Below are positions 8,456 to 61,091 of a stretch of DNA of 64,000 bases, piece by piece; position 1 is the stretch's first letter; each line of letters opens with the position of its first letter. Below the pieces are notes generated by a model, which saw only the letters and a list, made by a program, of their open reading frames with translations, had not been told where the DNA came from and did no database searches. Location of the stretch: positions 5,458,501-5,522,500 of the forward strand of contig OY987244.1 in assembly GCA_963920765.1 (NCBI GenBank), in the 5' to 3' direction. This DNA comes from Ulota crispa (lineage: Eukaryota; Streptophyta; Bryopsida; Orthotrichales; Orthotrichaceae). The translations under genes and the position numbers were made by a program.

Positions 8456-8561
8456 ACCTCTAGTAAGCTTAGTTCATGATGATTTCAACTAAATTGTAAA
8501 ATCTTATGTATCACATGAAAAGGTTTTATATGGTTTTCTCTGTGCAAAATACGGGGTTTAA

Positions 8562-8919
8562 CCCCTAAACATTGAGGAGGACAAAAACCGCCCTCCGGCT
8601 CTGAAAAAAAATTTTGTTATTCAAAAAAAAGTTGTTATTCATTTGATTTTTTTCAGAAGTGTCTATAAACTCATGGTTTATCATGGAAGACAAAAAATTA
8701 CCTCTTGAAATGCATTCATTTTGTTTGTAACCCAAATTGTGATAAGATTTAGAAACATGGTGTTAGCTCCCAAGCTGCCCTTCTTGCAATTTTCATGAGG
8801 GTACCATGCACTATTGACTTTTTTAATTTTTTGAAACAATACTACTGGTGCCCATGTGCAAAGCACTGTAGAATGCTACAAACAAGGCAAGCCACGGTGA
8901 TCCATCTGTCCTTTAAGGG
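8562..8919. mobile_element. TTAA-flanked MITE, copy 1
   Basis: The left end is CCCCTAAACATTGAGG and the right end CTGTCCTTTAAGGG. TTAA lies directly on both sides (8558-8561, 8920-8923). Ends and target match the TTAA group seen at 9885, 39194, 58994 and 60294. It is non-coding. From 8924 to 9590 I see no further gene or element. Confidence 0.6.
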
Positions 8920-9594
8920 TTAAACCACTCAATAGTATTCTATTTTAAAATGTAATAAGTTCTTTTGAACGAAGCTATCAAGTTGGATTTTTATTTTCGT
9001 TAGACCCCATTTTTTTGGAGCAAAGTCATAAATTCATGGTGCCGAATTTTTTTAAAAGTTTCACCATGCCAACATTTCAAAGTAAGGCAATATCTAGAGC
9101 TTAGGACATAATGTGAAGATATACCTTCATATGAGTTGGAATACACACATCTTGTGTAAAAAATACAAGTTAGGAGACAAATGTTTGAATATCTAAGTTT
9201 TGGGTTTCAATAAATCTTGTTGGAGGATTTACATGTATTTTTTTTTAGTATGAAACCAATTGGACAAGTGGTTTGATCATTCTCACAAAAAAACATAACA
9301 TTTGTGTTTACAAATCAGCACAAATTAGTTGCACATGAAGGAATGTGAGGTAGTCATACTCCGATTCATTTCCCAATCTTAAAGTCATGTTTCAATTTTG
9401 GATCATAACTTTTTTTCTATTGTAAAGGGCAAAAAAATGCCAAACAAAGTGTTTGAATGTTCCTCCAAAAAGTTTGTTGGGACGCTCCCAAGTTGGAATT
9501 TTGTTTTATATCCTGAACCTAATTTGGGACAAAGATAGTCCCCTTTGCAAAAAAATATGGGACAAGGTGTTGTAATTAGCCTTGCTGCTACAAT

Positions 9595-9767
9595 CACTAG
9601 AAGAAATTTGTGTTTTTTATAACATATTTTTTTGGATGTCTGCTTGTTTTTATGTTAATAATGACACCAAACATGACATCAAGATGTTAATTTTAACATT
9701 TATTGTAACATAATTCAAGTGGATGTCCAAAAAAATTTGTTATAAAAAACACAGGTTTCTTTTAGTG
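9595..9767. mobile_element. CACTA-type MITE
   Basis: It begins CACTAGAAGAAATTTGTG and ends in the inverted form (CACAGGTTTCTTTTAGTG). The ends continue as a pairing stem through TTTTTTATAACA. A 3-bp duplication AAT flanks it (9592-9594, 9768-9770). CACTA ends plus a 3-bp target define the CACTA (En/Spm) superfamily. At 173 bp it is a deletion derivative without genes. A relative lies at 61211-61350. Confidence 0.75.
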
Positions 9768-9884
9768 AATCCAGTATAATTTGGCCAAGATTTAGAGTAG
9801 AGCCACCATATTGGCATTAAAATTTTCAAATGCGTTGTCACAAGGGCATTTGGAATGGAAATGGACAATGTGAATTGTCCTTAA

Positions 9885-10804
9885 TTCCTAAAGGACCATT
9901 GTCCCTTCAAGGGATAAATGGGATTTTGGGCATGTACCTTTGGATAAGCTACTTTGTGTGATTTTTTGAAACTTTTATTGAAGGTGGGGAATCCAAAGAT
10001 CTATGTGGGCATTTAATTTTTTCTTCATTTGGACATTTGACAAAGAAGTTATGCAAGAATTTATCCAAACTAGGGGAGGAGGGGCAATTCAAGCCACCCA
10101 AAAAACTTCTTTAAGAAATGCACTTTTTAAAAATAAAAATTCGGAATTAGATCTTTAGATTTTTTATATCTGTGAAGCTTCAAATCATTCATTTTCAATC
10201 AATGAGATGAAAATTATGAGGAGTTTTTGTTTGTGGGCAGTTATGGATTCTCTACTCTAAAATAAACTTTGAAGTCCTTTATTTTACTCAACTTTCAATA
10301 TTTTGGAAAACAATTAAACCAAAGGAAGTAGATTGCTTCTCACAACACTATAACTATTGGGATTTGCATTTTTCATTTTAATAATCAAATTCTTAACTTT
10401 TTAGTGTTTTGACTCATTCTCTACTTCTTTCTACTTCCTATTTTTTCCCATGTGTTGTATAGTTCCAATTGATTTGAAAATTCTCCCACATATACCTAAC
10501 TTGATCTCTTACATGGAAAAATAAAAGCACAACTTGGGTAGAGCAATTTCTTTCATGTAAGAGAGGTCAAATGCTTTTGAAATTTACTCTCAACAAGGAA
10601 AGAAACCTTTTTCCTTCACTTCAAATGTAAATATCTCCCTCCTCTCCATCTAGAATGGCTTGATTTTTTTCCCAAAAGTACTTCTAATTTAAGGCAAGAT
10701 CCTACGGTTGAACTTCTTAAAAAAATATCTACCTTCTTACTCATCCCCTAGAAGTGGCGGTTTTCATTGATTTTGGTAGAAAAAAGGGCTTGATCCTTTA
10801 GGGG
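9885..10804. mobile_element. TTAA-flanked element, copy 2 (long form)
   Basis: The left end is TTCCTAAAGGACCATTGTCC and the right end GATCCTTTAGGGG. It is flanked by TTAA (9881-9884, 10805-10808). The left subterminal part (GGGATTTTGGGCATGTACCT) recurs at 46.1, 59.0 and 60.3 kb. The interior is AT-rich with no ORF of note. The 33140-33956 repeat is an inverted-orientation relative. Sequence from 10809 to 11200 holds nothing I recognise. Confidence 0.7.
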
Positions 10805-11200
10805 TTAAATCTCAAAATTTCAACCTTTTAATCACGGTAACTTTTTGAAGTTCAATTGGACTTGGGACATAGTGTGAATTATCCCTAGGTCCCAATGTTT
10901 CAATCTCATCCAAACTAGCTTTTCAGAATTCAATAGAGCTTGGGATGTACAATACAGTAGAGTGGTGCCTGGCTAACATGAAGGCAATGCGACAGGAAAA
11001 AATTTCATTGTAAGAAAACATTCATTGTAGCCAACTTCAAGGTAAGTCGGTGCAATATGTGAAAACAAATAATTGAGGTGGGACATAGAAATTAATCTTA
11101 GTCAAACCTTTTTCTTACAAAGGTTCATCTTAGCCAGGCACTACTGGGATCCGTTCATAAATTCCACTTTTAGCTTCTCAACCGAATAGGTTTTGAAAAG

Positions 11201-11415
11201 GACTTGGGACTTGGGGTTGGAGTTTGAGACTTGGGGTTTGGGGTTTGGAACTTGGGGCTTGGGACTTGGGGCTTGGGGCTTGGGACTTGGGCTTGGGGCT
11301 TGGGACTTGGGGCTTGGGGCTTGGGATTTGGAGCTTGGGGCTTGGGATTTGGAGCTTGGGGCTTGGGACTTGGGGCTTGGGGCTTGGGACTTGGGGCTTG
11401 GGGCTTGGGGACTTG
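11201..11415. repeat. (CTTGGG)n hexamer array
   Basis: About 200 bp of the hexamers CTTGGG and ACTTGG, partly in 12-18-bp higher units (CTTGGGACTTGGGGCTTGGG). One strand is very G-rich with runs of three or four G every 6 bp. Because the unit is a multiple of three, long ORFs open on both strands (SPKPQAP-type and LGLGAWG-type peptides). They are artefacts of the repeat. Confidence 0.9.
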
Positions 11416-12684
11416 AAGACACGGCTTGAACTGGCTTCCTCTTCTGAGTGACTGGCATATCCAATGCGATTTTGCCATGCAAAAACAAAACCTAGCAAGA
11501 AATTAGCCCCAATTGCCCCAATCCAAGGTTGTTTTTTACATTTTGGTCCTGAGCCACTGAAGTACATCTGATAGAATTTGGTCCCAAGTCAATATCACAT
11601 CTCTCTGTCTCCGTTGGTACGTCACCAGCTGTACTCGCAAACCTCTAAAGAGGACCAAAAGCTTGACACGGATTTCAATGTCATTTAGGACTAGGGAGTT
11701 TGGGTGTTGTACTGTACAATAGCCTCCAACAAATTTTGTTGCCCCCTTTTAACACTCATCATCTTATAATATAAAATTGGCATCAATCCGCATTTTTATA
11801 TTTTATTCTTATCTTGTATTATCTTGTATTTTTTACATTTTATTGTATCTGGCACATACTTGTCAATGTTTCTATAATAAATTTTAGATTAGTCTAAAAC
11901 ATATTGAGTTTGTGAAAGCCGTTTGGTTCACATGTTCAATTTGAGCACATCATTGCAATGTGATGGCTGAAACTTTGGGGACTTGTGTTTTTTTCATCAA
12001 TTGTTTGTTTTAAATAAATTTTGTTGGGTTTTGTTCCCCTTAAAATTTAGTAATTGTGGTAAAATTTTCATGTCAATCCAAGTTTTTTTGAATGTTTGAG
12101 AACAACTCAAAGTTCAAAATCAATTTATTTTTGTATTGTAGTGAATTTTGGTGGCTTATGACTTCTTCATAGAAAGTTTGATTTCGGTAAATTTTATTGG
12201 AAAAGTTTAGCATACTAGATTAGCTATTATTGCTAATAATTTGCATCAATTTCAAAAGTTATGACTTATGAGTGAATGAGAAGCACTTTAGTAGAGGGAG
12301 GTTTAGCCATAGATGTGAATTTTTGCTACTTTTTCCCCTACTTTTTGACATCTCAAAACACTTTTGCAAACAAAATGAGTCTATGTAATTATATTTTCTT
12401 TCACCTATGTCTTTGTAAATTGGTTTTGAATCACTTTACATTTTAAATGCTTTTCATTTGAGTAGGTTTAGAGATCAAATTTCACCCCAAACAAGTTATT
12501 AGGAAAGTTTCAACATCTTTTTTCAACACCAAAACATTATAATCTTCCAATTTATGTGGTCAAATGACCTTAAATTTGATCCACATCATTTGCAACATGC
12601 ACACTACAAGATTGTACGGTTGAGACTTTCATGCTTTATTGAAATTTAGGCTTACAAGTTACAACACTTGAAAAGCATAGAACA
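11416..12684. other. No gene seen, AT-rich
   Basis: AT-rich DNA with short direct repeats (for example ATCTTGTATT twice near 11813). I found no coding frame, element ends or RNA gene. Confidence 0.6.
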
Positions 12685-12930
12685 CTATATTCATTAAATC
12701 AGGAAAAAGAGTACATTTTGGGACTTTTGAAGGTTTCGGTGATCACCTAAAAACCAAGCTTGTAGCATTTTTTTGGTACATGTGCCCTCATCTGAGAGGA
12801 GGAATTTGCAAGGAAAAAATCTTATTGTCTAAGACTGAATCTGATACCTTTGAATTTGGTTTAAGGTAACTTTCTGGGTTTAAGGTGAAGTACAACTTGG
12901 GAATCTGGTTTTCCCAATTTAATGAAAAGC
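12685..12930. mobile_element. 'TTAAATTGGG' MITE, copy 1
   Basis: One member of the most frequent family in the window. Ends read ATATTCATTAAATCAGGAAA on the left and CCCAATTTAATGAA on the right. The interior carries the family core: ggtgatcacc, CTGAGAGGAGGAATTTGC, and a region reading GATACCTTTGAATTTGGTTTAAGG. It is non-coding and the target duplication is unclear. Confidence 0.75.
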
Positions 12931-13080
12931 ATCTATTAGATGCTTTTAGGCATGTTTGGACCTTAGGCAATGAGGGGTTAAATAACAAAACTTTAATCTT
13001 CAAAGGATTCAATAAGACCTTAATGCCCAAATTTTGTAAATTAGATATTTCTTTGTGATGTTCAAATTTTGCTATAATAG

Positions 13081-13198
13081 CATTATTCATTAAATTGGGA
13101 AAAAGAGTGACATTTTGGGACTTTTGGATTTACTCTTTAAAAAGCATAAAATTCAAAAGTTCCAAAATATCACTTTTTCCCAATTTAATGAATAACGT
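13081..13198. mobile_element. Internally deleted 'TTAAATTGGG' foldback
   Basis: About 118 bp made almost wholly of two inverted ends: CATTATTCATTAAATTGGGA on the left and its inverse TCCCAATTTAATGAATAACG at the right, each extending about 45 bp. The family core is missing. This looks like the minimal hairpin form of the family. Confidence 0.75.
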
Positions 13199-13199
13199 G

Positions 13200-13890
13200 T
13201 AATTTGACACATACGTTATATTTTACCTACATGGTAGCACTTCTTAGACATTTTGGCTCAAAGTTGGAGTTGATCGTTTTTCTTTAACTTAGCTTTTACT
13301 CCAAGTCCCACCAATATTTTTGCATAAATTATTCATGGATTTATTTGATACACCATTTTGCCATAAATAAATAAACAAAGTTGGAATCTCAAATTATAGA
13401 GATGGGACGTGGAACGTAGAGCGAACCGACCAGCTTACTGATATGGAAAAGAGCACCAGAAGCTGGGAATTGGTTGACATACGGTAGTAGGCCACGTCCC
13501 CCACGGAATAACGACCTCTCCAAGGTGGGGATCCACCTGGCCGAAGCAATTCGCTCTTTCAAACTGCGGAAGGGAATCTAGAATCACACCAAGGTCTTGA
13601 CTCTTTTGAGGCTGTGAGCTGGTCAGTGGTCACATAGTCAGCTCTACTTCCCAGTCCTCCTAGTGCAGCAAAGTCAAAACCAGTGATCCAGACAACTGCA
13701 AGTCTAGCAATAGACAGGAATACTAACCAGCCATGGAATGCTTTTCCTCCAATCTACCAAACCAACACCAGTGGTGCAGATCTCGGTCCACCGGTCAAAC
13801 GGATAAAAAATTAACGGCTCCGGAGCGCTGCGTCTCTGGCCGGTTGACAAATATGCCCGGGCGCGCTTGACATTCGCAACTCCCATTAAT
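13200..13890. other. No gene seen, mixed GC
   Basis: From about 13400 the DNA is less AT-rich than the flanks and not obviously repetitive. ORFs are short and lack recognisable domains. Confidence 0.5.
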
Positions 13891-14179
13891 AGGGGCTTCA
13901 AACTTAAACTTTTTCAGGTGACTCACGTCTCGATTCACCTGTGTGAATTTATTAGTGATTGATTCTTGTGGGGAGTGAATTTCAGAAACGCACTTTCATG
14001 TCTTTGCGTGGCTCATTCACGTGTTTCCTTAAATTCTAAAACTTGTTTCGTAGAAATTTCTGCAAATTCACGGGTGTCTCAGACTTTACTTGTGCGAGGG
14101 AACAAAAACAATGCACTGGTGAGTGAAGATCCTGTGAGGTGAGAAGTACGAAGGCCAGATTTTATGTTTGAAGCCCCCT
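13891..14179. mobile_element. MITE with AGGGGCTTCAAAC ends, copy 1
   Basis: Terminal inverted repeats are AGGGGCTTCAAACTTAAA and its inverse TTTATGTTTGAAGCCCCCT. A 3-bp direct repeat AAT flanks it (13888-13890, 14180-14182). It is 289 bp long with no coding. A second copy at 47090-47416 has the same ends and ATT duplications. The 3-bp target could suggest PIF/Harbinger, but the target is not the usual TWA and the ends lack GGCC, so I leave the superfamily open. It lies about 1.5 kb upstream of the receptor kinase start. Confidence 0.8.
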
Positions 14180-14182
14180 AAT

Positions 14183-15647
14183 GCCTCGTTCTTCACACTC
14201 CTACCTCGACTCTTGCTCGATCTCACTCCAACTCCAGCCCAAGAGCCACTGTGACACTTTCTTCTCCAATCCCACCAGCTTAACTTGCGACAGGGCAATC
14301 CTGGCAGATATTTTCTGAGCACTCATTCCAGCACATCTGCACAACTGGAACATTTGAAAGCGAATATGCAACACAAGTCGTTCCAAAGATGTCTGACATT
14401 CTAATAATACTAGTACAAAGACTTTCAAGTGATACTCGTCCAGACCTTCACGTTTGATCTACTGAATTACTGCTCTCCGCAAATGAACATCGAACTCTTA
14501 ATTTTCAATATCCAGGAATTCCTTCTTAATAGTGTCGGAAACTTGCGTTTCTAAAAGGGTCTGTCTTATTAATTACCATGCATAGAAACTGCAGGATTTG
14601 ACACTTACTTCCCACGTACTTTGGTGTCACTGCCAGCTGCTGCTGCAGAGCTTTTCAGACTCACACCGTGACTGTGTTTATTTGAAGCTGTCAAACTGGT
14701 ACCGCTGTAGTACTATACATGGAATCAACATGCTTTTTATAGGGGCAATTAGCATTGTGCGCCTTGGTTCAGAAACGATATGATGCACACTGGTGCACTT
14801 AGTAACTACTGCAGGGTAGATAGTTGATAGCCTGATTCGGCTGGGTGTGACGACCGTGACGTGTGAGTGAGCTTTACACGGTTGAACAGACCATAGGAAC
14901 TAAGTTAGGAACTAGAAAGGGGAGCCACTGACCAGTCCAGTACTGTTACATGGTGTACAGCCTCACATAACTAGCCACAGCAATATGTTGTACGGGTTTC
15001 CAAGTGTCGACTCATCAGATCAGATGTAGTCAAGAAGGCGGTGGCATCACTGGAAAAGCTGCAAGACTGAAACATCGGCCGGCTCCAATCTCATCCAAGC
15101 TTTTTAGCACATGTGTGCAGATCGATCAAGTTCCACGTTTCTGCAACAAACACAACGGCTTCGATTCGAAGACCAAGTGCAGAAACGACGTTCGAAACGT
15201 TCGAAACGTGTGATTAGTCCTCTGACAACAGCTCGTGATCAAGTTCTTCCTGTCAGGAATCTGATCAGCCTTGGGAGTACGTTTAAGCGAGATAGGTTCA
15301 ATAATGATCGGTTCTCGCCCTGGCAAGCTAGCTTTGAGGATTCAGGTGGAGATCAAGTGAAGTGCCTCAACTGCACCATGTCGAGTTGAAATCCTCCGTA
15401 GCAAGACAAGTCACCCAAGGTTGTGCATCGAAGTACTGCAACGGAGTAGAGTGCTGGAATCCAAAGCACAAGAGTGGCCGAGTTCTAAGCTCAAGCGTTT
15501 GGAGTGCCACTCGCTCGAAGGACACACTCACACACAGTTTGAAATGTTCTCCTCGGGTACATACTTTCCATAAAAGGGTGTCTCCGGGGCTGGTAGCACT
15601 TTTACTATACCCAAGTCTCTCTGTGAGCGAGTGTGGTTTTGGACGAC
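14183..15647. other. Region upstream of the receptor kinase
   Basis: Presumed promoter and leader of the downstream kinase. It is mixed-composition and not visibly repetitive apart from a small direct repeat of CGAAACGTT at about 15188-15207. ORFs up to 169 residues occur but show no domain and overlap in several frames. I could not place a convincing TATA box. Confidence 0.5.
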
Positions 15648-26279
<10,632 letters not shown>

Positions 26280-33139: not shown

Positions 33140-33956
33140 AAACATTATTTTGGAAAATCCAACCGTAGAATCTTGGCCTAGAAGTGAGATATTTACATCC
33201 AAAGTGAACAAAAAAGTTTTTTTCTTTACTGTCTGAAATTTTCAGAAGCCTTTGATTATTGGTAACCCAAAAAAATTACTCTACGCAAAGTTGAGGATTT
33301 ATTTTATCATGTCCAAAACCAAGTTAGGTATGTGTGGGAGAATTTTCAAATGAATTGGACATGTGGATCATACTTTGTAAAATCTTGCAATGCCAGAAGG
33401 TTTAGAATTTTACAAATACACTACGCAAAATTGTACAATTTATGTAAAATTTAGAAATCTGAATTACTTTGATCCAAAAGGTGAAAACCAAGGAATCTTA
33501 ATCTATTACAACTTAGAAAAAAAAAAGTAAAAAAACAAACACACAAAGAGCTCAAAAAAGTAAAGCAAAAAGTTTTACAAGGGGGGAAAAGGAATGGAGG
33601 TTTGGGAGTCCCATACCTACTTGCAAACTAAAACTTCTCATAACTTTCACCTCATTTATTATAATTGAATGATTCAAAGCTTCCCAAATACATATAAACC
33701 TAAAGAACCAATTTCAAAAAATAAATATAAAATAATTTCAATTTTTTTTGGCTGCCCAATAGTCTCCTGTTTTTCAGCTATTCATGCATAACTTCTTCAA
33801 TAAATGTCAAAATGAAGAAAAAAATTACATTCCCACGTAGATCTTTGAATTCCTCACTTTCAAAAAAAGTTTCAAAAAATCACACAAAATAACTTAACCA
33901 TAGGTACATGCCCAAAATCCCACTTGTCCCCCAAAGGGACAATGGTCCTTTACGGG
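33140..33956. mobile_element. TTAA-type element, one end only
   Basis: The right end GACAATGGTCCTTTACGGG is followed by TTAA (33957-33960). Working inward it matches the long form at 9885-10804 in inverted orientation (GGGATTTTGGGCATGTACC, then GTGGGAGAATTTTCAAAT, then ATATTTACATCC). The opposite end is missing beside the poly(A) run. From 33961 to 34217 nothing is recognised. Confidence 0.6.
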
Positions 33957-34217
33957 TTAAACCTGGAAGTCCCTAGTGTAAGAATAAGGAATTGAACTTC
34001 CATAGCATATTTTTATTTCTTTATGTTCTGCTGTTTTTCTTAAAGCTTTATCGATGATTTATTTCAGTCTATATAAACAGGGAACCAAGTGCATTTAACC
34101 ATATTAGTATTTCCTGGTAATGGTCATAACTGGATATTTCTTACTCTGGGCAGGCCTTCGTGGGTGCAATATTTGTTAGATTCTTGTGGATTTTTTACTA
34201 CACCTGTGTTTCGCTAC

Positions 34218-34975: not shown

Positions 34976-35882
34976 CCCATTAAGGACCACGCGACCATAT
35001 TTTGGTCGCTAGGAGTGGTTTTTGGCTTGTAGGTTGAAATCGCTCAATAATTGGGAATTTGGTCTTGAAGTACGCATGTGATCACAAGAATTTTGCATCC
35101 ATTTAACAAAATAACAATGCAATTGGGTATGTGAGTTGACAAATAATGGTGTTTATACGACATGGTTTCAAAATATGTATCCAAGTTTTGTCAAAGATGG
35201 ATCAAAGCAACAACATAATACATCAAGTATGCAAGAAGAATGTCAAATTTCAATTGCACAATTCTAAAAAATTTCAAATTGCTTAAGAAATTCACTTGTA
35301 TTGTTTTCCTATACGGTAGTAGTATAATTGTAGTATTTGAAGATCTATTGAAATTTTGTTGTCATTTTGGCTTTAAAATTTGTCATCCTACATTTAAGGC
35401 CAATTCTTGATTGTTTTCACCAATCAGATTTTCCAAAATAATTATCAATTTTCTTGTAGAACCATTTTAGGGTAGCAAAGAAAGTGGGTTTTTTTACCCT
35501 TTTTGTTCACTTAGCTACACCTTGTGATTGTTGTTTTTGTCTATTTTGTGTGAAATTAGTCTTGTTGGAAAGGTGGGAAACCTTGCTTTCTAGAAATGTA
35601 AGGCTCTTCTCAATCAAAGCTTGCATGAAAGGTTAACATTCAAAACTAAACAAGAATGAAACACAAGAGATTTTCCCCATACGGCTCACTCAATCATTAT
35701 AATATTTCATCTCCAACGGTAGATCTAGCTGAAATTTTGGTGCTTTAAAGCAAACAAGGTGCACTTCCCATTTGTACGGTTGGATTATTGAAAATGGGTC
35801 CATATTTGAATCAATTCCAAATCTAAGCTTACAGCCGCTTTTTTCAATGGATTTTGTGAAAATGGGTGTAGTCGTTAAAGAG
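34976..35882. mobile_element. Possible TTAA-flanked element
   Basis: The left end CCCATTAAGGACCACGCGAC and right end (inverse CTCTTTAACGACTACACC) are weakly similar and both abut TTAA (34972-34975, 35883-35886). No ORF. Weaker than the other copies. Confidence 0.35.
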
Positions 35883-38883: not shown

Positions 38884-39137
38884 AACACGATATTCATTAA
38901 AGTGGGAAAATGCAATTCCCAGGTTGTACTTCACCTAAATCCAAAATGTCACCTTAAATCAAATTTGAAGGTATCAGATTTAGTCTGAGTCACTAAGATT
39001 TTTTCCCTCGCAAATTCCTCCTCTTAGGTGAGGGCATATGTACCAAAAATAACGTTGAACTCGGTTTAAGGTAATCACCTTAAACCTTCAAAAATTCCAA
39101 ATGTGGCCACAGTTCCCAGTTTATTGAATATCATGTT
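38884..39137. mobile_element. 'TTAAATTGGG' MITE
   Basis: Left AACACGATATTCATTAAAGT, right TTTATTGAATATCATGTT, with GTAG directly on both sides (38880-38883, 39138-39141). The core has AAGGTATCAGATTTAGTCTG and CCTCCTCTTAGGTGAG. Confidence 0.75.
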
Positions 39138-39193
39138 GTAGGTATTTGGTGTCTGCTATGAACTCTAGGGTTGACTCTGAAAGCAAACTTAAC

Positions 39194-39425
39194 CCCTAAA
39201 GGGCCCTTGGGCTCTGGAGATACAATACCAAATACGGTCACAACCAATATTCAGAAGTTTGAATTAGCTAAAAATTAAGTGTTACATGACTTACATCCAT
39301 ATATATTGAAGGGTTGTATGATGGTGGGTGCATAAAAAAATTTGGAAAGCCCTCATAGTAACTCAAATAAGTCTGTACATACGACCGTACATACGGTCGC
39401 AAAGGGCTTTCGGGCCGTTCAAGGG
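39194..39425. mobile_element. TTAA-flanked MITE, short form
   Basis: Left CCCCTAAAGGGCCCTTGGGC, right inverse-like (GGGCTTTCGGGCCGTTCAAGGG read inward as CCCTTGAACGGCCCG). TTAA on both sides (39190-39193, 39426-39429). Contains a small palindrome GTACATACGACCGTACATAC. 232 bp. Confidence 0.6.
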
Positions 39426-40245: not shown

Positions 40246-40506
40246 AACGCATTACTTGTTAAATTGGGAAAAACAGAGGTACCATTTTGTACTCCACCTT
40301 CAACCCAAAAAGTCACCTTAAACTAGATTCAAAGGTATCAGATTCAATTTAAACCACTAAGATTTTTTCCCTTCCAAATTCCTCCTCTCAAGTGAGGACA
40401 CATGTACCCAAAAAAAAATGTTGAGCTCTATTTCAAGAGGCCTCCTAAAACCTTCAAAAATCCCAAAATGTAAACTTTTTCCCAATTTAACGAATAACGC
40501 TTTTAT
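40246..40506. mobile_element. 'TTAAATTGGG' MITE
   Basis: Left AACGCATTACTTGTTAAATT, right AATTTAACGAATAACGCTT. Core includes GGTACCATTTTGTACTCCAC and CCTCCTCTCAAGTGAGGACA. About 260 bp. The gap 39871-40245 holds no recognised feature. Confidence 0.8.
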
Positions 40507-43295: not shown

Positions 43296-43551
43296 AACGC
43301 CATATTAGGTAAATTGGGAAAAACAAAGGTACCATTTTGTACTCCACCTCAATCCAAATAGTCACCTCAAACCAGATTCAAAAGTATCAGGTTTAGTCTG
43401 AGCCACTAAGACTTGTTTCCTCACAAATTCCTCCTCTCAGGTGAGGACACGTGTACCAAAGGAGCTCAATTTGGGGTGATCACCCCAATTTTCCCAAATT
43501 TTCAAAAGTCCCAAAATGACCATTTTGACCCAAATTACTTAATATGGTGTT
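43296..43551. mobile_element. 'TTAAATTGGG' MITE
   Basis: Left AACGCCATATTAGGTAAATT, right AAATTACTTAATATGGTGTT. Core GTACCATTTTGTACTCCACC, CCTCCTCTCAGGTGAGGACA, GGGGTGATCACCCC. Confidence 0.82.
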
Positions 43552-45700: not shown

Positions 45701-45704
45701 TCAC

Positions 45705-46110: not shown

Positions 46111-46703
46111 TCCCAAAGGACTAATTGTCTGTTGGGGGGACAAAATGGGATTTTGGGCATGTACCTATGGCTAAACTACTATGTGTAATTTTTTGACTTT
46201 TAACAAGATATTCATTAATTTGGGACAAAACGTTCATTTTGGGACTTTTGAAAATTTGGGAAACTTGGGGTGATCACCCCAAACCAAGCCCCTTTGGTAC
46301 ACTTGTCCTCACTTGAGAGGAGGAATTTGAGGGAATAAATCTTAGTGGCTCAGACTAAACTTGATACTTTTGAATATAGTTTGAGGAAACTATTTTGGAT
46401 TGAGGTGGAGTACAAAATGGGACCTATGTTATTCCCAAATTAATGAATATCTCGTTTTTTTAATAAAAAATGGTAAAATTCAAAGATTTGCGTGGGCATG
46501 GCTGCCAAACCTCCCCAAATTTTCCGAACTTTATTTTTTATTTCTTCAAAAAATGTCAAAATGAAGAAAACATTAGATGCCCAAGCAAATCTTTGAATTT
46601 CCCATCTACCATAAAAAGTTTCAAAAAAGCACACAAAGTAGATTAGCCATAGGTTCATGCCCAAAATCCCATTTATCCCCCAAACGGACAGTTAGTCCTT
46701 TAG
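46111..46703. mobile_element. TTAA-type element nested in the 46088 MITE
   Basis: Left CCCAAAGGACTAATTGTCTG then GGGATTTTGGGCATGTACCT. Right inverse (AATCCCATTTATCCCC, GACAGTTAGTCCTTTAG). The outermost few bases have decayed, so the TTAA repeats are not clean. It holds another MITE. Confidence 0.6.
46202..46456. mobile_element. 'TTAAATTGGG' MITE, third nesting level
   Basis: Left AACAAGATATTCATTAATTT, right AAATTAATGAATATCTCGTT. Core (reverse orientation) GGGGTGATCACCCC, TTGAGAGGAGGAATTTG, GGTGGAGTACAAAATGG. Confidence 0.8.
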
Positions 46704-47687: not shown

Positions 47688-47934
47688 CCGAAATTGCACG
47701 AGCACTCTCCGATAACTGGCAAGTGTCACCCCGCCACAGACAAACTTCAAGAGCCACAAAGTACTTGAGCTCTTTCTACTCTCTAGAGTCTACTACACTT
47801 CGCTATATTCCAAGTGTCGTTCCATTTGCACCATTTCTAGAGCACTCTTTCGAAAAGAGAAAAAACAGTCTGGGTCTTTCAGATTCAGTTGAGAGTTTTT
47901 GGCACACTAGGACGATTTACGTTGAAGTTGAGAT

Positions 47935-48052: not shown

Positions 48053-48078
48053 ATTAGACTGAGGTGGTAGAGTTGAGA

Positions 48079-50540: not shown

Positions 50541-50547
50541 GAGTTAA

Positions 50548-50865: not shown

Positions 50866-52080
50866 TAGTATACACTATATAGGCACACCCTTTGCTCGAG
50901 TTGGGCATGTATGGGAAATGCAACATTCAACTTTACAAAAAAGTGATATCTCAATTCAATTGATCTAGAATTTAATCTAGATGTATAGTACAAAAAATCA
51001 ATCTCACAGTTGCTCTAAAATCTAACCCTCATACACCATCATTTTGGTGAGGCCAAATATACCAATAGCTTTATCACAATGCTACTCTTTAATACTTTGC
51101 TAAAGGGCGCTTGACATTTTATTAAATTTCTAGCACATGGTTGGAAGGCGTTTGATGTTTTATATTTGGGGCATGGCTTATTGTTTCAACTTCTACCAAA
51201 AAACTTCTAGAATGTTTTGGAAAATGATATGATTGGAGGACACTTGGTGCTCTATATCTTGCACGTCCTTTGTTGCTTCAACTTACAACAAAAATTTCTA
51301 GAAGGTTTTAGAAAAGGGTGAACCCAAGGAAATCCTCCCACTTAGTAGTATAGATGTAGGCATAGCTATAGCTCAAAGTTGCATTTTATTTGAAATTCTT
51401 GGAGGCAACCATTGAGACTTCACTCTTGTATAAAAAAATGCAACCTGGTTTTTTTGTACTATAGTGCATGCCACCATAAACCAACAAAGATGTAACAATC
51501 ATATTAACTATATATAGCAACCCTCAAAAAATTATATCTCTTCGTAACTACAAGCAATGAGATGTTAGGAAAAAAGTTATGAAGAGAAATTGGAATTATC
51601 TTTCGCCAAAAAAAAGTTATCATTGTTCAAAAATGGAAACTATTGGACATTTTACACTAAGAGAACAAAGAATTGGCCACCTTGACACTTGTTGCCCTGA
51701 AATTAATAATTAATTTAAATTCAATTGGCTAAATGGGTGATTTCAAGAATGACCTGTACTACATTCTATCCCCCTCACCTTGTGCGGCTTGTTTTTTGCT
51801 TGTACCTTTTGCATAAGAAGTCATATTGACTTGTCCTTTTAGAGTAATGTGAACATGCAAGTTATTGACATTTAGTGATTTTTTGGTGTTTTTTCAAATA
51901 TTTTTGCTATTTTTAAGCAGCCCCCAAATGGATGTCTACCTTGGCCATTTTGGGGGTTTTTAGTACTATTTTGGGTCCAAAAAAGCTTTTCTGGGGTTAT
52001 AAATCAGGGATGTTGTTTATGGAGCATGCTTACATGCATTTGTAGAAGGGTTTTACAAAATTATAAATTCCAAGGCATCT
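50866..52080. other. No gene seen, AT-rich
   Basis: AT-rich DNA without element ends, coding frames or RNA genes that I can support. Confidence 0.6.
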
Positions 52081-52092
52081 ACATTGTTTCAA

Positions 52093-52528
52093 GGGAAATT
52101 TACAAATAGGGACATGAAAAAATTGTAAAATATTACAAATAGAGGCGCAGTTTCAAAATAATTACAAATAGGGGCACAATTTCAAAAAAGGAGTAATTTT
52201 TTGTATTTTTTTTGTTTAGACTTTGGTTGATTTAGACACTTCACATTAAATGTTAGCTAATTTCCAAAAAACTTAAAGGACTCTCCAAATCAAGGCTAAA
52301 TAAAGAAATTTGAGTAAAGGGGATGGCAATTTTTGGAGATTATTAGGTTCTTAGGAAGTTAGCTAACATTTAATGTGATGTGTCTAAATCATCCAATGTC
52401 CAAATGAAAAAAAAATTACAAAAAATTACACTTTTTTTTTGAAAACGTGCCCCTATTTGTAATTATTTTGAAACTGCTCCCCTATTTGTAATATTTTACG
52501 TTTTCATGCCCCTATTTGTAATTTCCCC
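52093..52528. mobile_element. Mutator-type MITE, second family
   Basis: Ends GGGAAATTTACAAATAGGGA and inverse (CCCTATTTGTAATTTCCCC), pairing for well over 60 bp and containing an internal direct repeat of TTACAAATAGGGGC. A perfect 9-bp duplication TTGTTTCAA flanks it (52084-52092, 52529-52537). 436 bp, non-coding. Confidence 0.88.
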
Positions 52529-53104
52529 TTGTTTCAAAGTGGGCATCCTATCTCCCTTCATTGGCAAAATACAAAGAAATTCCTTAGCAAAGCAATTGTA
52601 CCATGTGAATGCGTTTAATGGATTCTCAAATGGCCATTTTTTATTTTATTTTTTCAAATTAATTTACTGTTTTCTAAAAAGCAAGAAAGAAATTGGCTTT
52701 TTGTTAGTGATTTTGTTTTGTGCATAACTTTTCGAATAAAAAATTTCTAAATCTTCATTTTCACAAGTAAGCTATTTTAAGTGCTCTACAAATTGTCCAT
52801 ATTTTTTTTATCTTTCAAATTTTTATTTCAAAAGCTCATAGTACTTCAGAGTACTACATAGTACTAAGGGTGTTTGAGACAAAACATAGGGGTCATTCTT
52901 GCAACTACCCAAATGACAAATTGAATTTATTAGGAAGTTGACAAGGCCACTATGGCATATCTTGGAATCAACCAATGAGATTGATGTGTCTTTGAACATT
53001 TAGGGCAAGTTGGGATATAAAGGAGAAAAAAAAGTGCTACTCAAGAATTTGGCCGATTCCCAAGGTTGGCTGGTTTATGGTGGCACACACTGTATGCTAT
53101 TGTA

Positions 53105-53995
53105 CAGTGCCCCTCAGTATGTTTATGTTTGGCTCATTTTGCCCTTCACAAAACTTTGGTTAAAGTAGATTATAATTTGCATTTTTTTAACTTGAATTAT
53201 GGTTTTGTAATTCTTATGCACTCTCAATCAATCGTACCAAATTTTAGTTCCAAAAAATCAAAACCCCATTTTTGGTAAATTGTTTTGTATTAAAAACACG
53301 GTTTCACATGAAAATTAATTGAAGAAAATTGGTAATGAATTTTTGAGATTTGATAGCATGGGTATGTAGGAAACATCCATATGTACCCGTTTCATGTTGA
53401 GAAAGCATCATTAAGTAACACAAACATGATCTACAAAGGAGTCAACATGAAATCAACATGAGGTGTGGTAGGACCACTATTTGTAAAATACATATCTCTA
53501 TTTTTTAACTAGCTTTTGGTTAAGTGAACATATTGTCATGCTCATAGGTACAAATTTAGTCATAATATATGAGTCAAATAGCAAAATATGACTAAAATAA
53601 AGAAACATCTATTTTACAAATTGTGGTCCTACCCCACCTCATGTTGATTTCATGTTGATTCCTTTGTAGATCACGTTTGTGTTACTTAATGATGCTTTCT
53701 CAACATGCAAAGGGTGTATATGGATGTTTCCTACATACCCATGCTATCAAATCTCAAAAATTCATTACCAATTTTCTTCAATTAATTTTCATGTGAAATC
53801 GTGTTTTTAATACAAAACAATTTACCAAAAATGGGGTTTTGATTTTTTGGAACTAAAATTTGGTACGATTGATTGAGAGTGCATAAGAATTACAAAACCA
53901 TAATTCAAGTTAAAAAAATGCAAATTATAATCTACTTTAACCAAAGTTTTGTGAAGGACAAAATGAGCCAAATATAAACATACTGAGGGGCACTG
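53105..53995. mobile_element. Near-perfect 890-bp foldback, mariner-like ends
   Basis: Left end CAGTGCCCCTCAGTATGTTT, right end its inverse, with TA on both sides (53103-53104, 53996-53997). Arms 53105-53489 and 53611-53995 (about 385 bp) are almost identical, with few mismatches. The 121-bp centre is diverged but still partly pairs. No coding frame. TA target and CAGTG ends fit Tc1/mariner. Confidence 0.82.
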
Positions 53996-54034
53996 TACAT
54001 AATGACAAAAATAGTGAAAGTTCTAGAATGTATT

Positions 54035-55225
54035 GCTTTTCCCAATTTACCTAATATGGCTATTTAAAAGGAGTGTGTTTATTGGACACTACATGAAATG
54101 ACTATGAGTGTTGAGTGCACAAAAGTATAGGTGTACCCAAAAGCAATTCTAAGCTTTTATGGTAAGGTGTACATTGTTAATGAAGAAACTACAAGATTGA
54201 GCTAGTTTTACAAAGTTAACATGTTAACTAATTAGATGAATTTACCTAGCAAATATTTTCTCAATGGCACATTTCGATTCCGTACACCTTATCAAACAAA
54301 TTCGGTGTTAGAAAAGGCCGGCAGTTTCACTAAATCTGGATGAAAGTATCATCTTGTGTTTTGTTTAATTATTTAGTCTAACTAAAACTAAATGCAAAAA
54401 TTTAGCGTGATTGAAGGAGGTTGTCAAGGTATGTCAACCCAATAAGGATACTCACCCATTAATTTGACCATTGCAAACTTAGAACAAAACTCAACTTATC
54501 ACCTTTATTGATGATAGTTTGAATTTGGTCTTGTAGTTAAACCAAACTAAAAATATACATGTACTGTTATGTTTGGAGAGTTATCCTCTCTATTAGGACG
54601 GACCTTGACTGTGGGTACTTTTAGGATAGGAAATTAATGGTGTGGCACTAAAGGAAACTCATTACAAAAAATTAAATGACCACAGAGAATTGCCATGTAA
54701 TAGAAAAAAAAAAAAAAAAAATGTGAATATGGTCCAAATATTTGATTGGGTTTTTTGAAATCTAAAAGTTATAAAAATTTACCTTTATTAAATGGACAAG
54801 AAATTTATCCATGTACAAAGAGAAAACAGAAGAGATATTATTACTTAGCCCATAAATGTCAGGCTAGTAACTATGGCTTGCCTTATTCTATAGGGGTATA
54901 GTGTTGTGACAATGCTCACTCTATAGTATTGTTTGTAAAAGTTGCAATTGTCAACAATGTAGCATGTTGTCCTCATGAAAATTGCAAGGGTAGTATGCTA
55001 GTATGAGATCGAACACCATGTCTGTGAATCTTCTCACACTAATTTAGGTTACCTAAAAGTTATGAGTATTTGGTGAGGTTGTTTTTTTACTTGCCATGGT
55101 GGACCATGTGTTTATGATCACTTTTGGAAAAACCAAATTAAAAACAATGTTTGTTTGTTCTATAAAATGTCTTTTTAAGACGGAGGATGAAAACATCTAC
55201 CTTTGCGGTGTTTAAGGTTAACAAG
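54035..55225. other. No gene seen; isolated MITE end
   Basis: CCCAATTTACCTAATATGGC at 54039-54058 looks like one end of a 'TTAAATTGGG' MITE without a partner. The remainder is AT-rich with a poly(A) run at about 54703. Confidence 0.5.
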
Positions 55226-55231
55226 CTCTAC

Positions 55232-55864
55232 ACTAAATAGTGAATTTGGGTTGCTCCAAACCAATTTCTTGACATTTTTACACACTATAAATATATAAAT
55301 ATACATATTTTTATGATAATTACAATAATTTCCATTAGCAAGTATTGCAATAACAAGAATAACGATTTTATAACAAGAACAAGGGTTTGATAATTACAAC
55401 AACTATGTTGCACAAAAATAAACTAGCAACATCCTAGCGGTAAACCGTGTAAAAATCCTAGTATTGAGAGAGGAGGCCAAGTAGTGAGCCATGTGGTAAC
55501 TTTCTAGGCTAAGGCAACCTAGCAACCTAAGGCCCAGTCCAAACTAGCAGCTGGACAAAGCAGCAAACTGGCACCCTTGTTGATGGTTAGTCTGCCAAAA
55601 ACTTTTTCATGTCATTGTGTGTCATCCAAGAGTGTGCTTCTACCAAACAAGTTTAGTACCACCCTTGAAGCAAGCCCCAAAACTTCACTATCTTGACCAT
55701 TGATGTGGCAATATTGGTTGATGAACATAGATATTAAGATATCGGACAAACCCTCATTTTGAACCCCGCAGTGGACAGAAACATATTTGTTTGAGAAATC
55801 TTCTACCAGTGGCTAGTCTGGACCGGGCCTAATTGTCAAGGCAACCTCAATGCAATGTTTCGTG
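55232..55864. mobile_element. CACTAAATAGTG-family MITE, host of a Harbinger MITE
   Basis: Left CACTAAATAGTGAATTTGGG, right diverged inverse (GGCAACCTCAATGCAATGTT then TCGTG). TA precedes the left end (55230-55231); the right TA is lost. It is split by a PIF/Harbinger MITE. Confidence 0.65.
55531..55829. mobile_element. PIF/Harbinger-type MITE, copy 2 (nested)
   Basis: Ends GGCCCAGTCCAAACTAGCAG and inverse (CTAGTCTGGACCGGGCC), with TAA duplication (55528-55530, 55830-55832). 299 bp; homologous to 37986-38299 throughout (GTGTGTCATCCAAGAGTGTG in both). Confidence 0.88.
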
Positions 55865-56169
55865 TTGTGCATATAGTGGAATGCTACCAAAGGTGTTATT
55901 AAAGAGGGAATGAGTAACTTCGTGAGGGCCTTCCAAAAGCACCTGTTGACTTCCGTGTGTCCTAATTAATTGTCGGAGTGTCTGGATTTTGTAGAGCAGG
56001 TCACTTCGCAGCAGCTGTATCGAAACTGGGTCGGTACCTCCTCAGAGATCTCTGATTCCCCAATCACCCCAAAAGCAGGTGCATTGACTGCATTCATGCA
56101 TTTTGAGATTTTGGTTCGCACGGGAAAAAAATACCAAAATAAGTGGGGAAGACCAGGGTTTTCTTTTGT

Positions 56170-57370
56170 TTTTGTCAGGGTTGAGCAAAGCGTTTTTTTT
56201 TAAGGATTTCAACTTATGGAAGTGTTGGCAATGATTTATGACTGTAACTCACTGAGGTGGCTATATTGGAAAAATACCTGAAGAAGCATGCTTTATTTAT
56301 GACAAAAGGTGGAGAGATTTTGGTTACCAGTGGTTTCTTATTACACAAGTAAGGAGGCGCAAATGAAATGTATTGGTCATGACTTTTGAAAAATTACTAC
56401 AATTAAAGTGTGAGAGTTGAAATATGTGGCAAATAGAACACCCATATTATCTTGATTGGAGATTAATTTGGCGATGCCAGTCAACCAATAGGGGAATATA
56501 TACATGGTCCTCAATCAAGGTTTGGCTATAGGGTTATCAATTACAAGTGAACATTGGCAAAAAAGACACTCTTTTTCACATTTATTTCCTATAGTGATAG
56601 TGAAGCATAATTTTCATGGTGAATTTTGGCTATTTTTAGCCAATAAAAGAAATGCTAGTTTAGCACCCCAGAATGCACATAGGTACTAAAAAATTGGTTA
56701 TAATTGGAATGAATGGATGAATGTGTGCACATTGATCCAATAAGTTTGCTAATATGAGTTACTTTCATTCAAAAGTTGGCAAATATGGTGTTTGCATGAG
56801 GGAGTTGGCAATTTCATGCACTTTCCCATGCAAAATTTTTAGTGTATTGTTTGCCAGTGCTAGTTCAAGGTAAGATTTAGGCAAAAATTTGCCAAAAAAT
56901 TTGACGTTGGAGAAAACTAATAAAAGGACAACAAAACTGTCTTGTTTGTGGCAATGAGGGTAAGAAAGAAACAGAAGAAAAGGGAGAAGAACAATTTCTG
57001 TCAGTGCATCCATGGTTGTCACATTGGATTGCCCGCTTACCCATCCACCCAAATTGCCTGCATTCAACTCATATTTGTTCAATGTAATCAAATCATAGTT
57101 ACCTTCAAAAACTGATAAAAACAACACATACTTTGTATATGTTGGTGATATTCATTCTTGCCAACATGTAGTCAAAAACAGGGATTTAAAACTATATCCT
57201 GTAGTAAAAATGAAGAAATAGTAACTTGAGTCTTCATTTTTTAGGTCACAAATCCTAACAAAATCCTAACAAAAATCCTAAAATGCTAGATTGAGCATAC
57301 ACGTTTGTCCATGCTGTCCATTTTCCACCTATCTTGTCCAATGCCAAATCTTGTCCAATGTGACAACCAT
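56170..57370. repeat. Dispersed repeats, two families
   Basis: 56170-56900 matches the 41340 repeat in places, starting TTTTTGTCAGGGTTGAGCAA. 57008-57369 matches the GGTTGTCACA repeat and here shows both inverted ends (GGTTGTCACATTGGA / TCCAATGTGACAACC). ORFs of 60-120 residues inside are not supported as genes. 57371-57756 shows nothing further. Confidence 0.55.
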
Positions 57371-57756
57371 GTACATCCATCCATAAAATCAGCTCTTTTC
57401 GTCCAATTCCATTGAAGGCCATTGTGCATCTCAAGGCCAAGCCACACCAAATCAAACATATTTTTCAAAACATCATTTTGTAAATCATAAAAAATAGCAG
57501 TAATTGCTTTATTGTGTAAAAATGGATTCCTTGAATTTGGACACTCAATTTTAGTTTGTACCAAACTGCCAGTTTTGAGTTTCACAAACCACTTTCTCCA
57601 ACTTCTTGCCCTTGAATAATGGAGGAGCTGTTCTTAGTAAACAACAGATGGGGCCTTGAGCAAAGTGGTTGTCCCCCAAGTTTCAGAAAATACAATTCAT
57701 TTCTTCATCTCTTCCAAACCGACTATTTTGGTCTATGTGACCCCAACCTCAACTAT

Positions 57757-58640
57757 ATCAACTAGTGCATTTAGGTTGTCCCATACTAACTTCTCAACAT
57801 TTCACACTATTTAAATATTTATCACGACCACATTAATTTTTGTCAATAATTAATGTGATGAACAATGGAGGAAGGAAGCGGAGGTTGGGCGTAGTATTAA
57901 GCGCTCAGGGGGGTCACTTAGTGTATCTATAGTACACCACGTGCAATCAAGTGATCTTTTGACCCTCTATTTACTTTCTAATAAATTATGATTTCAACCT
58001 ATCATTGTAAGGCATTGTTTAATCGAGACTATAGGATTCTATTGCCAAAAGTTTCAATTAAAATAATATTTTAAATTTTTTCTAGAGAAAGCTGAAAAAT
58101 GAACAAAAATGCCATGTTTTTCAACTCAAATATTTATAAAAAACACATGTAGATGACCATTGCATCAATATTCATAGAAATATAAACTGTCAATAGAGCC
58201 TCGCTTTAGAGAATTTTGGTGTGTTTTCTAAAAAAATCTTTCTTATATAAAATAGGGGTGTGAAAGTTATTTTAAGCTTTGCAATGTATCATTTTACTTC
58301 AGAAATTTGTAACTAATTATAATTAACAAATAAAAATATGAATAATTCTGAACATAAACTTTCAAAAGATTAAAGTCTACTCATGTTTTTTTCTTTTCCT
58401 TTTATGTAATTTTAAAAAAATAAAATAGAGGGGTCAAAATTTGATTGCACGTGATTTGTATGAATACACTAAGTGATCCCCTAGATTAAGTGCCAAAGTT
58501 ATGGAGAAGGAAAGCTAGAACAAGAGACATAATCAAAAATTGTTATAACATAATGAGAGTTGTATGCCCTTCCATGTGGCCAAGGATGAGTTATAAGATA
58601 ATTTTAACAAGATAAAGCAACCTAAATGCACTATTCGATA
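57757..58640. mobile_element. CACTAAATAGTG-family MITE, host of a Mutator MITE
   Basis: Left CAACTAGTGCATTTAGGTTG, right inverse (GCAACCTAAATGCACTATTC). The ends have decayed but the interior motif TTCACACTATTTAAATATTT is shared with sister copies. It carries the 57905-58484 insert. Confidence 0.65.
57905..58484. mobile_element. Mutator-type MITE, third family (nested)
   Basis: Ends TCAGGGGGGTCACTTAGTGT and inverse (ACACTAAGTGATCCCCTAG), pairing about 65 bp through CACGTGCAATCAA and TTTGACCCCTCTATTT. A 9-bp duplication ATTAAGCGC / ATTAAGTGC (57896-57904, 58485-58493) flanks it, one mismatch. 580 bp, no gene. Confidence 0.83.
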
Positions 58641-58993
58641 TAGAGAGTATGTGAAGGGTGTTGACTTTGCTCTGCTTAGTCATCGCTAGATGAGCAAAAG
58701 CATATTATGCCAAAAATTTACTCACAAAAACAAGGGCAAATAACATGCCTCACCTTCACAACAAATAGCCTTGATTAATCTAAAATCACCCAAAGTAGTG
58801 TGAATAAGTCTCATACTCTTGCACTAACCGAAAAAGGTGTGCAGTAACAAATAGTGATTTTCAAAATGCCATTTCAAAATCAACCTTCCAAAAAACTACC
58901 AAGAGCAATTTTCAAAGGAAAATAACTTTTTTATTTCGGGTAAAATACACAACAGAATGGATAATTATTATGCCAATGAAAAAACATGGTTAA

Positions 58994-59565
58994 CCTGTAC
59001 AGGACTGACTGTCCGTTCAGAGGATAAATGGGATTTTGGGGAGGTACCTATGGCTAAACTCCTTTGTGTGATTTTTTGAAATTTTTATGGAAGATGGGAA
59101 ATTCGAAAATCTATGTGCCCATCTAATTTTTTTTTTTTCATTTTGACGTTTTTTGAAGTAGTAAAAAATGAATTTCTGAATTTTTTTTGGAGATGGGGCA
59201 GTTTGGGCAGCCCAAAAACTTTTTTAAAATTTACATTAAAAAAAATAAAAATCTGAAATTGGTTCTTTGAGTTTATATATACAATACATGGGAAGCTTTA
59301 AATCACTTGTTTCCAATAAATGAGGTGAAAATTATGAGAACTTTTAGTTAACTGGTAGATATGGCTCTCCAAAAAAAATTCAGAAATTCATTTTTTACTA
59401 CTTCAATAAATGTCAAAATGAAAAAAAATAAATTAGATGGGCACATAGATTTTCAAATTCCCCATCTTCCATAAAAGTTTCAAAAAATCACACAAAGTAG
59501 TTTAGCCATAGGTACCTGCTCAAAATCCCATTTGTCCCCTGAACAGATAGTCAATCCTTTAGGGG
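58994..59565. mobile_element. TTAA-flanked element, copy with clean ends
   Basis: Left CCTGTACAGGACTGACTGTC, right inverse (GATAGTCAATCCTTTAGGGG), TTAA on both sides (58990-58993, 59566-59569). The arms pair nearly throughout (GGGATTTTGGGGAGGTACCT, CCTATGGCTAAACT...), so it is almost one long hairpin. 572 bp. Confidence 0.72.
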
Positions 59566-59689
59566 TTAAGAATGAATGTACCTTTTCCGAACCGCGGCTT
59601 TGAGAACAGTCGGACCCATTTCAGGACCAAGTTTAGGGAACGTCGGAAATTAGCAGTGGTCCTTCTTCCGTAGCCTCAACTTTCCAGAG

Positions 59690-59960
59690 AAGTGTTTATT
59701 TTTTGTTTCTTTTTTGTCAAGATAGAGCAACTCGCACCCTAGAATGCTAGCAGGTAAGGAAATATTGACTAAAATTGGAATGAATGAATGATATTTGCAC
59801 GTTCATTCAATATATTTACTAATATAAGTTATATTTGTCCAAAATCAGGCAAACTAGTTGTTTGCGTAAGGAGGGAGGTGACAATTTCATCCAGTTTTTC
59901 ACCCAGATTTTCTAGTGTAATGGTCACCACTGACATTTCTAAGTAAGCTTTAGGCAAAAA
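59690..59960. repeat. Dispersed repeat, 41340 family
   Basis: TTTTTTGTCAAGATAGAGCA, ACTCGCACCCTAGAATGCTA and TTTCATCCAGTTTTTCACCC match the 41340 copy. No ends resolved. Confidence 0.55.
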
Positions 59961-60066
59961 TTTGCTAGAAAAATGAACACTGCCCTAAAGTGTCCAGTGT
60001 TTCTAAGGACCAATGTTTTCTCAAACATGGCAAAATTTAGTAGTGTTTTCACCAAATTGTTTTCTA

Positions 60067-61091
60067 CACAATGGATTGTGCATTTTGGTTGCCTCCCCAA
60101 TTAGGTTGCCTTACCTTGGGAAGCTACCTCATGACTCATCATTTGGTCTCTTGGAGGCACATGCAACTCTTTATATATAAGGATTTCATATGGTTTATGA
60201 CTTGGACATCACTAGTTTATTTTTTTGCAACTTCATACGTTGTCATGCCCTTTCAAAACATGTTTTTATTGCAAGAATTATTTATGACATTAACCCCTAA
60301 AGGACCACTTGTCCTTGTGGGGGACAAATGGGATTTTGGGTATGTACTTATGGCTAAACTATTTTGTGTAGTTTTTTGAAACTTTTATGGAAGATGGGAA
60401 ATTCAAAGATCTGTGTGGGCATCTAATTTTTTCCTCATTCCAATATTTATTGAAGAAGTTAAAAATGAATTTATGAGAATTGTTGTTTGGTGGGCAGCCC
60501 AAAAACTTCTTTAAAAATTGCATTTTTAAAATAAAAATTTGAGGTTGGTTCTTTAGACTTATGCATATGTGGGAAGCTTTGAATCATTCAATTCTTATTG
60601 ATGAGAGAAAAGTTATGAGAAGTTTTAGTTTGCGTGTAGGCATAGTTTTGAGATTTTCTACATCTACTTGCAAACTAAAACTTCTCATAACTTTTCTCTC
60701 ATCAATTAGAATTGAATGATTCAAAGCTTCCCACATATACTTAAGTCTAAAGAACTAACCTCAATTTTTTTAATAAAAAAATGCAATTTTTAAAGAAGCT
60801 TTTGGGCTGCCCGCCAAACAAAAATTATCATAAATTCATTTTTAACTTCTTCAATAAATATTGGAATGAGGAAAAAATTAGATGCCCACACAGATCTTTG
60901 AATTTCCCATCTTCCATAAAAGTTTCAAAAAATTACACAAAACAATTTAGCCACAAGTTCATGCCCAAAATTCCATTTGTCCCCCATAGGGACAAGTGGT
61001 CCTTTAGAGGTTAATGTAATAACAACAAATACTTATATAGTGTAGAATGTCAAGAAACTAGAGTGGGGCAACCTAAATGCACTATTTGATA
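60067..61091. mobile_element. CACTAAATAGTG-family MITE, first of a chain
   Basis: Left CACAATGGATTGTGCATTTT, right inverse (CCTAAATGCACTATTTGATA), TA at 60065-60066 and 61092-61093. It is interrupted by a TTAA-type element. The right TA is shared with the next MITE. Confidence 0.68.
60294..61010. mobile_element. TTAA-flanked element (nested), long hairpin
   Basis: Left CCCCTAAAGGACCACTTGTC, right inverse (GACAAGTGGTCCTTTAGAGG), TTAA on both sides (60290-60293, 61011-61014). Both arms (about 340 bp) pair with few mismatches. 717 bp, no ORF that I accept. Confidence 0.8.

Follow-up and report, generated by a model that had tools for sequence, protein, structure and literature searches.

Which transposon gave rise to a set of short, TTAA-flanked inverted-repeat sequences in the DNA of a moss, and is a relative that encodes a transposase found in the same genome? 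The question is raised by a stretch of 64,000 nucleotides of the Ulota crispa genome (contig OY987244.1, positions 5,458,501 to 5,522,500; henceforth "the window"). A first-pass annotation had described there one group of piggyBac-like miniature inverted-repeat transposable elements (MITEs), made of five elements with TTAA outside both ends and three one-ended or decayed relatives. Our analysis indicates that the elements are almost certainly non-autonomous piggyBac MITEs and relics. This reading is carried by four features of the sequence: the ends match those of transposase-bearing elements, insertion took place at a 4-mer now present twice as TTAA, one element (9885-10804) combines the two ends of a larger transposon, and two hairpins have the 5' end of that transposon on both sides, in inverted orientation.

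TTAA immediately flanks both ends in the five elements first listed (5/5), and the coordinates of four of them stand as given; the third starts at 39193, not at 39194. The inverted ends had been ascribed a common form, which holds well for 60294-61010 (one mismatch between ends in the first 12 bases) and unevenly elsewhere, with three mismatches in 9885-10804 and 39193-39425, four in 58994-59565 and five in 8562-8919. In the latter, one mismatch falls within the first 8 bases and no terminal arm alignment was obtained. The description of several copies as almost complete hairpins fits 60294-61010 (326/350 identical positions in the arms), largely fits 58994-59565 (210/242), applies in part to 9885-10804 (261/338, gapped arms) and does not apply to 8562-8919.

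In the window, CCCYTAAAGGAC occurs 18 times with up to two mismatches, compared with a mean of 7.7 in shuffled sequences, none of which reached 18 (0/100). An excess of TTAA-bounded inverted 12-mers (14 counted, where 30 shuffles averaged 0.73) was rejected as support: just one of the 14 corresponds to the two ends of a listed element (60290-61014), while two lie inside the 60294-61010 hairpin, five in an unrelated palindrome at 53160-53940 and six elsewhere. The strong evidence for the end motif comes from counts across the genome to which the window belongs (274.8 Mb, 157 contigs), not from the window itself. The exact 16-mer TTAACCCYTAAAGGAC has 12,001 genome copies and its reversed-pattern control has none, and CCCCTAAAGGACCA is directly preceded by TTAA in 7,555 of 8,876 copies (85%). 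The element end includes CCCTAAA, the plant telomere unit, which is probably a coincidence.

We also detected a MITE family of 955 bp that is homogeneous (L002:1501-2455 and relatives, 90-93% alike) and has TTAACCCCTAAAGGACC as its ends. When 40 of 1,831 candidates were scored, 39 further matches at 90-93% identity were obtained, each with 882 or more bases covered. This family may be the source of many of the 12,001 ends; no copy was found when it was looked for in the window.

A search for a long copy with the same ends and a DDE_Tnp_1_7 transposase, proposed in the first-pass annotation, yielded the element at locus L038, whose transposase match contains stops. The element is 8,255 bp long (L038y 530-8784, which corresponds to G000:C8:11097229-11105483), has TTAACCCCTAAAGGACCA at each end and harbors two internal palindromes; the transposase lies inside it, at 6010-7152 (L038y). 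Both ends start with CCCCTAAAGGACCA, and the element therefore has the short terminal inverted repeat (TIR) beginning with CC that is typical of piggyBac, a trait that is uneven in the window copies. The ends of Trichoplusia ni piggyBac start with CCC.

The 3' flanks of the transposase loci L025, L026, L034 and L038 are similar to window elements 9885-10804 and 33140-33956. When L011 was added to the downstream-end comparison, for its transposase and not for flank similarity, all five loci were found to end downstream in TTAACCCCTAAA[AG]G[AC], the sequence being exactly CCCCTAAAGGACC in L038 and L034 (2/5). When the 30 best loci are aligned, each in its proper frame, these five separate from the others as one cluster at 50% identity. 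L038 is the sole cluster locus read at both ends; at L034, a matching 5' end was not found in the stretch fetched.

Duplication of TTAA is not exclusive to piggyBac. The window MITEs might instead belong to Kolobok or Sola3, two other superfamilies that target TTAA, and the presence of piggyBac in the genome would then be coincidental; the genome-wide transposase search was made for PF13843 (DDE_Tnp_1_7). However, their ends, together with several hundred bp of subterminal sequence, recur in elements that bear PF13843, and the L038 element largely refutes an origin from Kolobok or Sola3, which we consider very improbable.

Other readings were discarded as well. Insertion of the L038 element in a 955-type MITE was rejected as the joined flanks align over ~32 bp only. 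Locus L053, with 5.1 kb between two exact ends, was rejected as an autonomous partner: a scan of four frames revealed no transposase family, and none of the 20 best tblastx rows was a match to the transposase loci. Bracketing end pairs first read at L039, L041 and L046 were dismissed since each of them includes an end that is part of a nested MITE.

Empty sites at orthologous loci had been proposed as a test of the target site; the sites examined were paralogous unoccupied ones of the same genome. The host site of 60294-61010 is a repeated unit of ~300 bp, and the joined flanks match many places in the genome without a break. In all of the best 20 junction-spanning sites (20/20), one 4-mer stands where the filled site has TTAA twice. 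This 4-mer is TTAC in nine sites, TTAT in five, TTAA in one and a different one in five; 14 differ from TTAA in the last base only. A second case is provided by a MITE of the 34976-35882 type that lies in a piggyBac relic at L047: paralogs at L046 and L048 are continuous across the junction and have one 4-mer. Both the single 4-mer and the same-end transposase element support the piggyBac reading, and the 4-bp TTAA target duplication of piggyBac is found here, with the caveats of a single TTAA among the 20 sites and a one-base gap.

A different possibility is that TTAA is part of the TIR, without target duplication, or that the duplication comprises 2-3 bp as in Tc1/mariner and PIF/Harbinger. 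TTAA is palindromic, which had already been a concern in the first-pass annotation; furthermore, at 19 of the 20 unoccupied sites the present 4-mer is something other than TTAA, and the one-base gap adjoins the site. Such an explanation is nevertheless highly unlikely: the 4-mer kept at unoccupied sites would be absent if both TTAA were element-owned, and beyond TTAA no direct repeat is seen in four of five hairpin copies, with one base in the fifth. Under the piggyBac reading, the DDE_Tnp_1_7 transposase of larger elements would bind CCCCTAAAGGACCA-type ends in trans, cut them out and join them to TTAA in the manner of Trichoplusia ni piggyBac; by homology, it would make hairpins with TTAA and insert at TTAA.

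The relationship between window elements and L038 was examined by local alignment of element ends to the two 400-bp ends of L038, a test in which the maximum of 50 shuffles was 26. The left side of 9885-10804 matches the 5' end (164/200, score 111) and its right side matches the 3' end (290/372, score 172); hence, it is an internal-deletion derivative. Both ends of 58994-59565 score high against the 5' end (90.5 and 93) and low against the 3' end (16 and 16.5). The same is true of 60294-61010 (102 and 97.5 against the 5' end), the 3'-end scores of both hairpins being 16-30. Because both ends of each match the L038 5' end, these two elements are 5'/5' foldbacks. As for 33140-33956, it matches L038y at the 5' end and also in the 3' region.

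Against the L038 ends, 8562-8919 reaches at most 22 and 39193-39425 at most 23.5. The score of 34976-35882 (28.5) is slightly over shuffles and no higher than other non-matching comparisons, the tip being common. Relatives of two of these elements were detected elsewhere: L042:7789-8132 is 75% identical to 8562-8919, and copies of the 34976-35882 family lie at L047:8562-9478 (87.5%) and L039:744-1652 (81.8%). Judging from these comparisons, the window holds several families and not the single group first described, as 8562-8919, 39193-39425 and 34976-35882 do not derive from L038. Among the supposed one-ended or decayed relatives, 33140-33956 is indeed one-ended; 34976-35882 turned out to be a complete copy of another family, and 46111-46703 an interrupted element of the 58994 type (Table 1).

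Table 1. TTAA-associated elements of the window (strand "." where none is assigned).
Position	Strand	Flanking TTAA	Ends	Assignment
8562-8919	.	8558-8561 and 8920-8923	left CCCCTAAACATTG, right CCCTTAAAGGAC	separate TTAA-flanked family of ~360 bp
9885-10804	+		left ~205 bp, 5' end; right ~375 bp, 3' end	internal-deletion derivative of L038-type piggyBac element
33140-33956	-	33957-33960	single TTAA-flanked end; other side truncated beside A run	relative of 9885-10804
34976-35882	.	both sides	CCCATTAAGGACC / CTCTTTAACGAC	complete copy of other TTAA-flanked MITE family; 915 bp including both TTAA
39193-39425	.	both sides	weak inverted ends (3/12 mismatches)	short TTAA-flanked element
46111-46703	.	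not intact now		58994-type hairpin MITE split by nested ~255-bp repeat (about 46202-46455)
58994-59565	.	each side	both like 5' end of L038 piggyBac element	foldback MITE
60294-61010	.	60290-60293 and 61011-61014		near-perfect 717-bp hairpin MITE, 5'/5' foldback; paralogous unoccupied sites point to 4-bp target-site duplication

Foldbacks of this kind are not confined to the window. With up to one mismatch, TTAACCCCTAAAGGACCACTTGTCC is found at 666 genome places. Among 100 listed of these, the 25-bp ends form 15 facing pairs spaced 494-752 bp, and no close pair in any non-facing orientation was found. Four of the 15 facing pairs were fetched, and all (4/4) have folded arms that are 90-97% identical and TTAA on both sides. 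In 5/5 hairpin copies, both halves are of the L038 5' type, with scores of 84-111.5 against that end and no more than 35 against the 3' end. As single-stranded DNA, 60294-61010 has a predicted fold of -345.9 kcal/mol, versus a mean of -70.1 in 20 shuffles. The elements are short and repeated, have inverted ends and a target duplication, and lack a transposase, as is the rule in MITEs. One repeated offshoot seems to consist of two mirror-image copies of a single transposon 5' end.

Hairpin families probably arose by inverted copying of the 5' end, and the plant transposase would then have accepted two 5' ends. Alternatively, they might stem from an unseen autonomous element with long, alike ends, without inverted duplication of an L038-type end. 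One cluster element alone has been read at both ends, and passages of PMC10813416 describe an animal piggyBac with 528-bp inverted repeats. The scores of the two halves establish their 5' character and not the route by which it was acquired, and we view an unseen element of this sort as a possible but doubtful source. The number of 5'/5' elements suggests either a more tolerant transposase or a partner not seen that has two like ends. With some hesitation, we lean towards the view that, in this plant lineage, a piggyBac transposase has been capable of mobilising symmetric elements composed of two inverted copies of its 5' end, up to a high copy number (666 near-exact ends in one family), whereas wild-type insect piggyBac requires a left and a right end in cells.

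PF13843 has at least 120 matches in the genome (best E 1.3e-73), a lower bound as 116 of 528 candidates were scored; none of 14 control genomes had a match (0/14). Most of these matches are interrupted by stops, and diversity is high among the 30 best loci (over 435 pairs the median identity is 34%, and 19 pairs reach 60% or more). Because the transposases are very diverse and most matches contain stops, several piggyBac lineages have resided in the genome. In a lineage other than the L038 cluster, L039 has an intact frame of 476 amino acids that matches PF13843 (E 8e-60) and the T. ni piggyBac transposase (6x67, E 4e-20). piggyBac transposases have three catalytic aspartates. In L039, the aspartates of VDE and CDN are aligned with DE and CDN in 6x67, and a further one (GDQN) is present in the frame but lies beyond the printed 6x67 alignment. 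Two further transposase elements of 5.2-5.3 kb, L049:2701-8008 and L050:2695-7924, are 89-93% alike, and their alignment extends exactly from one TTAA to the other, beyond which the flanks are unrelated, so that the element borders are fixed.

Several observations weigh against the conclusion that the window elements are piggyBac derivatives mobilised by elements such as L038. The L038 transposase match has one TGA and four TAG, and the other four cluster loci have 2-6 stops each (the search ignores introns). Because of the stops in its match, we only infer mobilisation by L038. As in-frame stops are found in the matched region of all five cluster loci, the piggyBac system is probably inactive here, or else an intact source is not among the loci seen. 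Among 12 transposase loci viewed at 10 kb each, three apparent end pairs involved nested MITEs, and a good end pair was not seen at L040, L045 and L047. Three of the six window elements tested barely resemble L038 beyond the tip. At the target site, TTAA itself stands in just one of 20 unoccupied sites, and the adjoining A run has one base fewer in the window copy; for the L047 insertion, the 4-mer of the paralogs is A-rich, with small gaps nearby.

Other repeats surround the elements. The region 53160-53940 is a near-perfect palindrome (arms 323/346 within 53187-53913) that belongs to a separate foldback family with relatives in L053, L004 and L026. Its segment 53187-53913 was rejected as a TTAA-flanked element because the palindrome continues past the inner TTAA on both sides. 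A dispersed repeat of ~255 bp is found at 46202-46455, nested in MITE 46111-46703, and at 43296-43551, 40259-40411, 38889-39047, 20736-20911 and 12681-12926, some copies being partial. Units of the ~300-bp repeat lie at 60110-60293 with 61011-61194 (the host site of the 60294 MITE) and at 61499-61843, and have dozens of genome copies. The window also contains a frame with an AP2 domain. The genome has four matches to Radial_spoke_3 (radial-spoke protein 3; best E 4.3e-14), of which three lie within 2.2 kb. Flagella are absent from flowering plants and conifers, so the host is probably a plant whose sperm are flagellate.

The elements described here share with T. ni piggyBac (PDB 6x67/6x68) the TTAA target and a homologous transposase, that of the L039 frame. 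They differ in the size of the plant elements (5.2-8.3 kb), the CCCCTAAAGGACCA end, the thousands of such ends and the existence of symmetric 5'/5' derivatives. According to passages of PMC7351741, wild-type T. ni transposase in cells supports excision and integration only with LE35/RE63; LE35/LE35 is inactive, RE63/RE63 permits excision without integration, and hyPBase relaxes the end requirement. Animal piggyBac families, as presented in parts of PMC10813416, likewise have TTAA duplication and TIR starts such as CCCTT and CCCAT; the host here is, in contrast, a plant.

The piggyBac superfamily, familiar chiefly from animals, is already known, land plants included, and what is added is the detail of a plant population. 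The first-pass annotation regarded piggyBac as uncommon in land plants, a surprise that is partly warranted. A table in PMC4438587 has PiggyBac among the superfamilies present in all eukaryote groups studied, land plants included; the parts examined indicate presence, without ends, target sites or transposase. PiggyBac is listed as one of seven angiosperm MITE superfamilies in the examined part of PMC10004981, where MITEs are grouped by internal sequence, TIR and target-site duplication, whereas the elements described here have a partner that shares their ends and bears a transposase. A repeat table of the fern Ceratopteris labels 1,230 fragments as PiggyBac (PMC6890710), again without ends, target sites or transposase in the part examined, and a passage of PMC5505980 states that the piggyBac system is yet to be tried in P. 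patens. PMC10619864 was discarded as a source because, in the part examined, the word occurs only in 'expression piggybacking'. Among the matches listed, no title or abstract opening described piggyBac elements from mosses, liverworts or clubmosses, nor did any match describe, for a moss-like plant, a piggyBac population together with its partner, its target sites and its symmetric derivatives.

A large and diverse plant piggyBac population is thus documented with its transposases, matching MITEs and target sites, while the parts examined of the papers above merely tabulate presence. If the 5'/5' foldback MITEs are what they appear to be, the end asymmetry needed by insect piggyBac would not be universal. 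Acceptance of two 5' ends would, in addition, bear on transpososome architecture and on the design of simpler piggyBac vectors.

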